DNA of 64,000 bases from Hydrogenophilales bacterium (GTDB lineage: Bacteria; Pseudomonadota; Gammaproteobacteria; Burkholderiales; Thiobacillaceae): positions 62,001 to 126,000 of the forward strand of contig JACPYT010000016.1 of assembly GCA_016195805.1 (NCBI GenBank). The letters run 5' to 3'. Positions 46,154 through 47,176 of the stretch are shown here, piece by piece; the stretch's first letter is position 1; every line of letters begins with the position of its first letter. A program made the translations under genes and the position numbers. The notes below the pieces were generated by a model that saw only the letters and a list, made by a program, of their open reading frames with translations, ran no database searches and had not been told where the DNA came from.

Positions 46154-46516
46154 ATGAACGATCGCACTGAACGCAAGACCATTCCCATCCAGGACGTCAA
46201 CGAGGCCAGCAACTGCGCCAGCGCCGAGCCCTATGCGCTGATGGTGCTGGGCGACTCGATGATGCCGGAATTCGAAGAAGGCGAAATCATCGTGGTCGAG
46301 CCGTCCGGCCTGGTCAAGGACGGCTCCTACGTGGTGGCCTACGTCAACGACGAATACATCTTCCGCCAGATCGTGAAGCGTGACGACGGCTGGATGCTGA
46401 AGCCACTCAATCCGCTTTACGAGAACATCCCGGTGGCGGATATCGATGTCGCCAAGGGCGTGGTCATCATGAAGAAACGGCCCGGCAGGCGAAGCGAGCA
46501 GAAGCGCTACATCTGA
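46154..46516 (+). CDS. S24/LexA-fold protein without HTH and with an altered dyad
   Basis: A 120-aa protein that is only the LexA/CI-type S24 domain: MVLGDSMMPEFEEGEIIVVEP with Ser35, and EYIFRQIVKRDDG. At the position of the catalytic Lys (LexA Lys156) it has Arg71, and no helix-turn-helix is present. So it probably neither cleaves itself nor binds DNA. Role unknown. It lies between mutL and the SOR-like gene, both behind IscR-like sites. Confidence 0.75.
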   Translation: MNDRTERKTIPIQDVNEASNCASAEPYALMVLGDSMMPEFEEGEIIVVEPSGLVKDGSYVVAYVNDEYIFRQIVKRDDGWMLKPLNPLYENIPVADIDVAKGVVIMKKRPGRRSEQKRYI

Positions 46517-46598: not shown

Positions 46599-46623
46599 TT
46601 AGTTGACTGATTTACTCGGGTAT
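46599..46623 (+). promoter_or_regulatory. IscR/Rrf2-like operator upstream of the SOR-like gene
   Basis: The site reads TTAGTTGACTGATTT then ACTCGGGTAT. It matches the IscR type 1 consensus at about 23 of 25 positions. TTGACT (46603-46608) is also a good -35, with TAGACT (46625-46630) as a -10 at 16 bp, so the site covers the promoter. A DnaA-box-like TTATCCACG lies at 46571-46579. Confidence 0.6.
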
Positions 46624-46667
46624 ATAGACTGGGGGTGTAGTCCAACCCTACACAACAGGAGAAAACC

Positions 46668-47123
46668 ATGAGTGGATTGATCGCTAATTTTCCGACCGAC
46701 GGTATCGTGACAGTCAACCGGGTGGTACTGAAACCGGAATACACGGTGGATGACCTGCAGGAGCGGGTGGCGTTTCTGTGCGAGAACGTCAAGACCTACC
46801 ATTCCGATACGGGTTTCGTCGGCGGCTTCGTTGCGTTGAACTCCGGTCAGGTGTCGAACGAAGGCTCGACCATCGGCCAGGCTGTCGAAAGCCCGATGAA
46901 GGGCAAGGAGGCGCTGATCGTGACCTTCTGGACCGATTTCGAGAATCACGAGAAATCGCACCGTTCCGCAACCTTCCAGCCGCTGTTCCAGAAAGTGCTG
47001 GACCTGTGCGAAAACGGCAACGAGGAAATCGCCTACGAAATGCTGTGGTCCGGCAAGGCCTACGGTCCCGACGAGATCGCGGCGGCGCGTCAGGCCAAGG
47101 CGCAATACGCCCACGCAGCCTGA
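46668..47123 (+). CDS. Small SOR-like (sulfur oxygenase reductase-like) protein
   Basis: A 151-aa cytoplasmic protein with no named domain I can assign firmly. By eye the block TFWTDFENHEKSHR (86-99) closely matches TFWKDWKDHEEMHR of sulfur oxygenase reductase, where the two His bind iron; a Glu at 120 (in EEIAYEML) fits the third ligand, and Cys38 with GFVGGF (49-54) fits the catalytic Cys and GFVGF region. It is half the length of SOR (about 310 aa). Strong AGGAG site and leader dyad GTGTAG/CTACAC. An ABM-type dimeric barrel is the alternative. Confidence 0.6.
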   Translation: MSGLIANFPTDGIVTVNRVVLKPEYTVDDLQERVAFLCENVKTYHSDTGFVGGFVALNSGQVSNEGSTIGQAVESPMKGKEALIVTFWTDFENHEKSHRSATFQPLFQKVLDLCENGNEEIAYEMLWSGKAYGPDEIAAARQAKAQYAHAA

Positions 47124-47145: not shown

Positions 47146-47176
47146 AGCGGCGGGGGAAACCCCGCCGCTTTTTTTC
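47146..47176 (+). terminator. Intrinsic terminator of the SOR-like gene
   Basis: AGCGGCGGGG (47146-47155), loop GAAA, CCCCGCCGCT (47160-47169), then seven T. A perfect ten-pair stem with a full T tract, ending the SOR-like transcript. Confidence 0.93.

Follow-up and report, generated by a model that had tools for sequence, protein, structure and literature searches.

A Single-Domain Protein Resembling Sulfur Oxygenase Reductase in Sulfur-Oxidizing Bacteria, with a Sister Branch on Phage Contigs

Results

A SOR-like Gene in a Hydrogenophilales Genome

The stretch of DNA analyzed here (the window) comprises 64,000 nucleotides of contig JACPYT010000016.1 (positions 62,001 to 126,000, forward strand) from assembly GCA_016195805.1 of a Hydrogenophilales bacterium. 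A preliminary description, made from the letters alone, drew attention to an open reading frame (ORF) at 46668–47123 whose 151-amino-acid (aa) product was said to resemble half of a sulfur oxygenase reductase (SOR). The ORF is present as claimed, named motif residues included: the window protein contains TFWTDFENHEKSHR, C38, GFVGGF, and E120. Since 374 relatives were found in one scan of species genomes, the ORF is a real gene. Its product is not a SOR proper, being half the length and below the cut-offs of the SOR models; judged by its sequence, it is related to the N-terminal, iron-bearing half of SOR and probably works like that half. The features of the gene are as follows.

46668–47123, plus strand: coding sequence, 151 aa, branch A of the single-domain SOR-like family (ATG start, relatives)
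46779–46781, plus strand: codon of C38, aligned with the essential Cys31 of SOR
46947–46949, plus strand: codon of H94, aligned with the SOR iron ligand His86
46959–46961, plus strand: codon of H98, aligned with the SOR iron ligand His90
47025–47027, plus strand: codon of E120, aligned with the SOR iron ligand Glu114 by MAFFT (the hhalign alignment ends before E120)
46603–46630, plus strand: sigma-70-like promoter TTGACT-16-TAGACT from a consensus scan, weak (one found versus a mean of 0.4 in shuffles)
46657–46661, plus strand: AGGAG, likely ribosome-binding site six bases 5' of the ATG, read from the sequence
47146–47175, plus strand: possible intrinsic terminator, a GC-rich hairpin followed by T7, read and folded (the consensus scan listed no terminator)

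A Conserved Family with Two Branches

The SOR-like family is conserved and falls into two branches, A (about 150 aa, that of the window protein) and B (about 130–145 aa). The best 80 of the 374 relatives were kept; they are 77–97% identical to the window protein, have lengths of 142–153 aa, and come from records named Thiobacillus, Sulfuriferula, Thioalkalivibrio, Sedimenticola, Chromatiales, and others. Searching 369 genomes of the class with a profile produced 74 matches, bimodal apart from a few fragments: in 50 genomes the best match lies below E 1e-70 (branch A), and the branch-B set lies at about 1e-19 to 1e-25. Dropping G131 (a 25-residue match, E 4e-6) and G361 (E 0.001) left 72 family-positive genomes. 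The fragments in G067 and G196 were kept, G067 being placed in branch B by its E value, though it may be a branch-A fragment. Both branches occur together in five of the 369 genomes (G043, G126, G237, G309, and G335). In a sample of the phylum, 8 of 299 genomes had a match, all of branch-A type and five of them outside the class. Plasmids yielded only one 34% fragment at E 4, which is not credible.

Duplications were seen in a few relatives. Each of two Thiobacillus genomes, including that of T. thioparus DSM 505, carries two branch-A copies (L003/L039 and L010/L037), and in each pair one copy is 96% and the other 85% identical to the window protein. In G569, a relative in the same family, a stretch of about 110 bases from the 3' end is repeated in a partial tandem duplication (L158:2013–2123), the altered copy sitting just 3' of the stop codon of the SOR-like gene.

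The SOR Active-Site Residues Are Retained

We aligned 12 family members with SOR halves using unguided MAFFT. C38, H94, H98, and E120 fall on SOR Cys31, His86, His90, and Glu114, and N17, G60, T86, W88, and C114 also coincide with SOR residues. The matches hold in all five N-terminal SOR halves; the one C-terminal half in the same alignment has only G60, E95, and H98 in common. According to the available part of PMC7398979, His86, His90, and Glu114 are the iron ligands of S. tokodaii SOR, mutants of these ligands and of Cys31 are inactive, and mutants of Cys101 and Cys104 have activity lowered about tenfold, with about a tenth kept. A match of the window protein to the SOR iron-binding block had been made by eye in the preliminary description, with Glu120 proposed as third ligand and Cys38 as catalytic cysteine. 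The by-eye alignment was right, because the unguided one gives the same residue matches.

Conservation was assessed on 179 non-redundant members from 198 loci (113 of branch A, 66 of branch B). H94, E95, S97, H98, E120, T86, W88, Y123, and W127 are invariant in all 179, C38 is kept in each of the 178 members that cover the position, and C114 in 175 of 179; E119 is constant only within branch A. The ligands and the cysteine are thus unchanged although branch B is only 30–39% identical to the window protein. The HxxxH motif was found in none of 15 aligned ABM proteins from related genomes.

Profile Comparisons and Predicted Fold

The sole Pfam match of the window protein is PF07682 (E 0.056, 12.7 bits versus a cut-off of 25), and its sole NCBIfam match is the SOR model NF047630 (E 0.0038, 16.3 bits versus a cut-off of 400); PF03992 gave no match to it at E up to 10. 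Searched against the PDB as a single sequence, the protein had SOR in fourth place (E 0.85), behind unrelated proteins. With a branch-A profile the top match was SOR 6m35 (E 0.017), followed by unrelated triosephosphate isomerases (E 0.09). Taken singly, the Pfam and PDB matches are the weaker evidence for a link to SOR. When 48 members were compared with the models and matches counted at E up to 1, PF07682 matched 32 (best E 9e-4) and ABM 14 (best E 0.0063, that of PF03992); PF13826 matched 13 of the 48 (best E 3e-3). Alignment of the 48-member family with a 10-member SOR alignment by hhalign scored 91.9% (P 7e-7) over 100 columns in the N-terminal half of SOR, with C38 and both histidines included. 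Branch B alone scored 80.5%, and the control, the family against the 15 ABM proteins, 27% (P 7e-4).

Over the 369 genomes, PF07682 recovered 10 full SORs and six matches below its cut-off. Five of the six fall on branch-A genes, where the matched part of the model never extends past position 115 of 300. Chance resemblance to SOR is ruled out by the profile comparison, the place of these sub-cut-off matches, and the conservation. Also ruled out is a SOR fragment or pseudogene: the 80 relatives read are all 142–153 aa, and the window's own genome has no PF07682 match at E 0.001 or 0.01 in a search that works, since it found SORs in 10 other genomes. The full SORs themselves (L193–L202) form two groups, scoring 446–481 and 204–218 bits to PF07682, and the lower-scoring L199–L202 have EGPEEP or DGPEEP instead of EGPWEP.

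A structure predicted from branch A plus phage branch B consists of one ABM-type ferredoxin-like domain (pLDDT 89.6, pTM 0.80); it replaced a first, fair model from branch A alone (pLDDT 74). The predicted single domain agrees with the earlier guess that a 151-aa protein would correspond to one of the two SOR repeats. Of the choice between SOR and ABM families raised in the preliminary description, the SOR side stood in the profiles, which favor SOR, and in the conserved ligands, but not in the structures, where the closest solved ones are ABM proteins. SOR was not among the 50 Foldseek matches listed, an absence that counts for neither side.

The Family Follows Sulfur-Oxidation Genes

Across the 369 genomes of the class, dsrA was scored in 119 (112 above the cut-off plus seven truncated genes with E below 1e-30) and soxB in 156 (E up to 1e-30; 148 above the cut-off). 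Each of the 72 family-positive genomes has a match to dsrA, soxB, or both, and the family occurs in none of the 199 genomes that lack both. The firm figure is 71 of 72, because the sole basis for counting G337 (75% complete, no dsrA) is a soxB match of E 1e-31. By gene class, the family is present in 57 of 105 genomes with both genes, 6 of 14 with dsrA only, and 9 of 51 with soxB only; the nine positive genomes with soxB but without dsrA mean that it is not tied to Dsr alone. Fisher's P for the co-occurrence is 2e-29, which overstates independence since the genomes are related.

The window genome has a single copy of the SOR-like gene together with dsrA and soxB. Two full-length dsrA genes lie above the model cut-off in this genome (G000:C1:71276–72529 and G000:C17:184774–186027), and one of them shares the window's contig, about 76 kb from the SOR-like gene.

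Gene Neighborhoods in Bacteria

In the window, the SOR-like gene is flanked 5' by an S24-peptidase-like gene and mutL, and 3' by a class I aldolase-like gene; the mutL and aldolase identities are presumptive. The weak promoter and the strong hairpin with T7 suggest a single-gene unit. The small S24-peptidase-like gene (LexA/UmuD-type, 120 aa) lies directly upstream at 46154–46516 on the plus strand and has relatives in 38 of 80 loci, all but one of them Thiobacillus-type records.

Synteny is kept within Thiobacillus (mutL, the S24-like gene, and the aldolase gene) and within Thioalkalivibrio. An ArsR-rhodanese gene is in the neighborhood of 9 of 10 Thioalkalivibrio-named loci, and an MBL-fold gene in six; in L065 the ArsR-rhodanese gene, whose domains were checked, is divergent and 237 bp away. 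This linkage counts as one event, because the loci share one gene order. A rhodanese gene follows at seven loci (6 of 11 named Sedimenticola, plus L058), about 1 kb downstream where the distance was measured. Among 90 neighbors of bacterial branch-B genes searched with Pfam, no recurring partner exceeded three members.

One branch-B gene lies inside a dsr operon. At L112 (genome G305) it stands between dsrP and dsrN in the gene order dsrL-dsrJ-dsrO-dsrP-B-dsrN-dsrR, and the contig also carries dsrA. Here DsrO exceeded the NCBIfam cut-off and DsrJ and DsrP fell short of it; the names dsrL, dsrN, and dsrR come from order and family. Branch B is present in 27 of 60 genomes of the family to which G305 belongs.

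Branch B on Phage Contigs

A scan of IMG/VR with an alignment of both branches returned 25 contigs, some of them near-copies, all of branch-B type. The 108 proteins that flank phage branch B include major head protein, head protease, tail, DnaB helicase, and DNA polymerase families; in 18 phage contigs searched whole, Gp23 was found in one and the large terminase in two. A phage copy had no match among INPHARED phages at E 0.01, and neither the window protein nor any of three phage copies matched a PHROGs family at E 0.01.

An IscU-like gene adjoins branch B in L133 (near-copy L154) and in L141, and in L135 it is one 58-aa ORF away; IscA-like genes are nearby. The IscU- and IscA-like genes of L141 were named by similarity on reading. 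Of 21 phage contigs, five had a DsrC match above the cut-off. Four related ones (L132, L137, L138, and L139) have dsrC 0.1–0.8 kb upstream of branch B, and in L150 it is about 1 kb away. About 0.5 kb upstream of dsrC in L132 (2518–3030) and L139 (3168–3683) is a presumed peroxiredoxin-like gene. In the four phage DsrC proteins read, the C-terminal cysteine is the only one kept; in the available part of PMC8190135 this is the commonest state of phage DsrC, and such proteins may act like TusE.

Discussion

We consider it fairly probable that the SOR-like protein is a mononuclear non-heme iron protein of cytoplasmic sulfur oxidation whose substrate is sulfane sulfur bound to cysteine; both metal and chemistry are inferred. 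The protein would form a homodimer of ferredoxin-like domains, each subunit holding one mononuclear non-heme iron through H94, H98, and E120. At C38, sulfane sulfur would be taken up in persulfide form and offered to the iron. The iron would then oxidize it, with sulfite as the product and O2 as the simplest oxidant, or else activate the sulfur or pass it on; the putative role is cytoplasmic sulfane-sulfur oxidation. The O2 step is the least certain, because several hosts of the family also live without oxygen and because the phage and operon neighbors fit a sulfur-relay or iron-sulfur (Fe-S) role. An O2-dependent oxygenase activity as such we rate at less than even odds.

Several results weigh against this assignment. 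The window protein reaches the cut-off of no SOR model in Pfam or NCBIfam, and branch A alone scores only 57.6% against SOR in hhalign. In structural comparison ABM proteins outscore SOR, and VIA-align matched the second half of SOR (150–308) rather than the iron half. ABM also matches that second half in hhalign (73%, P 3e-5); the family, ABM, and SOR are therefore distant relatives of one another, and it is the iron half that decides between them. The family is missing from 56 of the 119 dsrA genomes, an operon conserved across genera was sought and not found, and dsrP lies within the 1.5 kb flanks of only 2 of the 27 branch-B genomes of the G305 family, G305 itself included.

The nearness of ABM proteins raises the question of whether this is an ordinary member of that superfamily, with an organic substrate or heme, whose likeness to the SOR active site is convergence in a common fold. 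We regard this as improbable: PF07682 matches 32 of the 48 members, against 14 for ABM, and with a better best E value, hhalign prefers SOR, the aligned ABM proteins lack HxxxH, and the distribution of the family follows sulfur-oxidation genes. The IscU-like and IscA-like genes at or near phage branch B, and the place of branch B just before dsrN and the IscA-type dsrR in the L112 operon, would suit a supplier of iron or sulfur for Fe-S assembly or Dsr maturation, an iron chaperone or persulfide carrier with no oxygenase activity. However, Fe-S assembly is universal, yet in the sample the family is confined to genomes with dsrA and/or soxB; the SOR ligand set favors a stable mononuclear iron; and marine T4-like phages often carry iscU and iscA for other reasons. 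Such a supplier seems to us unlikely.

A sensor or regulator with no catalytic activity, binding iron and persulfide to report cytoplasmic sulfane sulfur, would be in keeping with a small, single-domain protein that possibly has its own promoter and terminator, belongs to no operon conserved across genera, and in Thioalkalivibrio L065 is divergent from an ArsR-rhodanese gene. Against it, Pfam and NCBIfam scans of the window protein detected no DNA-binding domain, and conservation is centered on the SOR catalytic set. We hold this reading, too, to be a distant prospect.

There is, in our estimate, about an even chance of a wider reading: that cytoplasmic sulfur oxidation in Proteobacteria involves an unrecognized iron enzyme, a widespread single-domain counterpart of SOR, and that several phage lineages acquired branch B with dsrC or iscU, driving sulfur oxidation by the host during infection. 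The handling of cytoplasmic sulfane sulfur in sulfur oxidizers is incompletely known, and the SOR-like protein is a directly testable candidate part of it. The protein also suggests a possible form for the ancestor of two-domain SOR, and branch B adds a companion to phage-borne dsrC genes, whose role is debated. Together, the co-occurrence and the sister version in phages point to an overlooked step in microbial sulfur oxidation.

Comparison with Known Systems

SOR (PF07682; PDB 2cb2, 6m35) shares with the SOR-like protein the aligned active-site cysteine, two histidines, and glutamate, an ABM-type ferredoxin-like domain, and its occurrence in sulfur oxidizers. It differs in having about 310 aa, two fused domains, and a 24-subunit shell, whereas the SOR-like protein has 151 aa and one domain. 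The family and a full SOR occur together in 5 of the 369 genomes (G015, G043, G055, G126, and G247). The ABM dimeric alpha+beta barrels (PF03992; SnoaB, IsdG, FasU) share the predicted fold of the family, which probably forms the same dimeric barrel; they differ in the missing HxxxH motif and in their weaker profile match to the family. ETHE1-type persulfide dioxygenases oxidize persulfide with a mononuclear iron in a metallo-beta-lactamase fold; they are alike in the proposed reaction, and their fold is unrelated to the SOR-like family.

No description of a short SOR or of a branch-B phage module was found in titles and abstract openings, with subscription papers and supplements outside the search. 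In the parts available, an inventory of Sulfuriferula isolates reports no SOR and mentions no short relative (PMC12285272), and a survey of 75 Thioalkalivibrio strains reports a full SOR in three, and dsr only in strains divergent from the rest, again with no short relative mentioned (PMC6382920). The word oxygenase is absent from the available part of PMC8190135, on phage sulfur genes. The auxiliary sulfur metabolism genes of phages (dsrC, dsrA, soxYZ) are the closest parallel to branch B in their setting: it, too, is carried on phage contigs, in some of them near dsrC.
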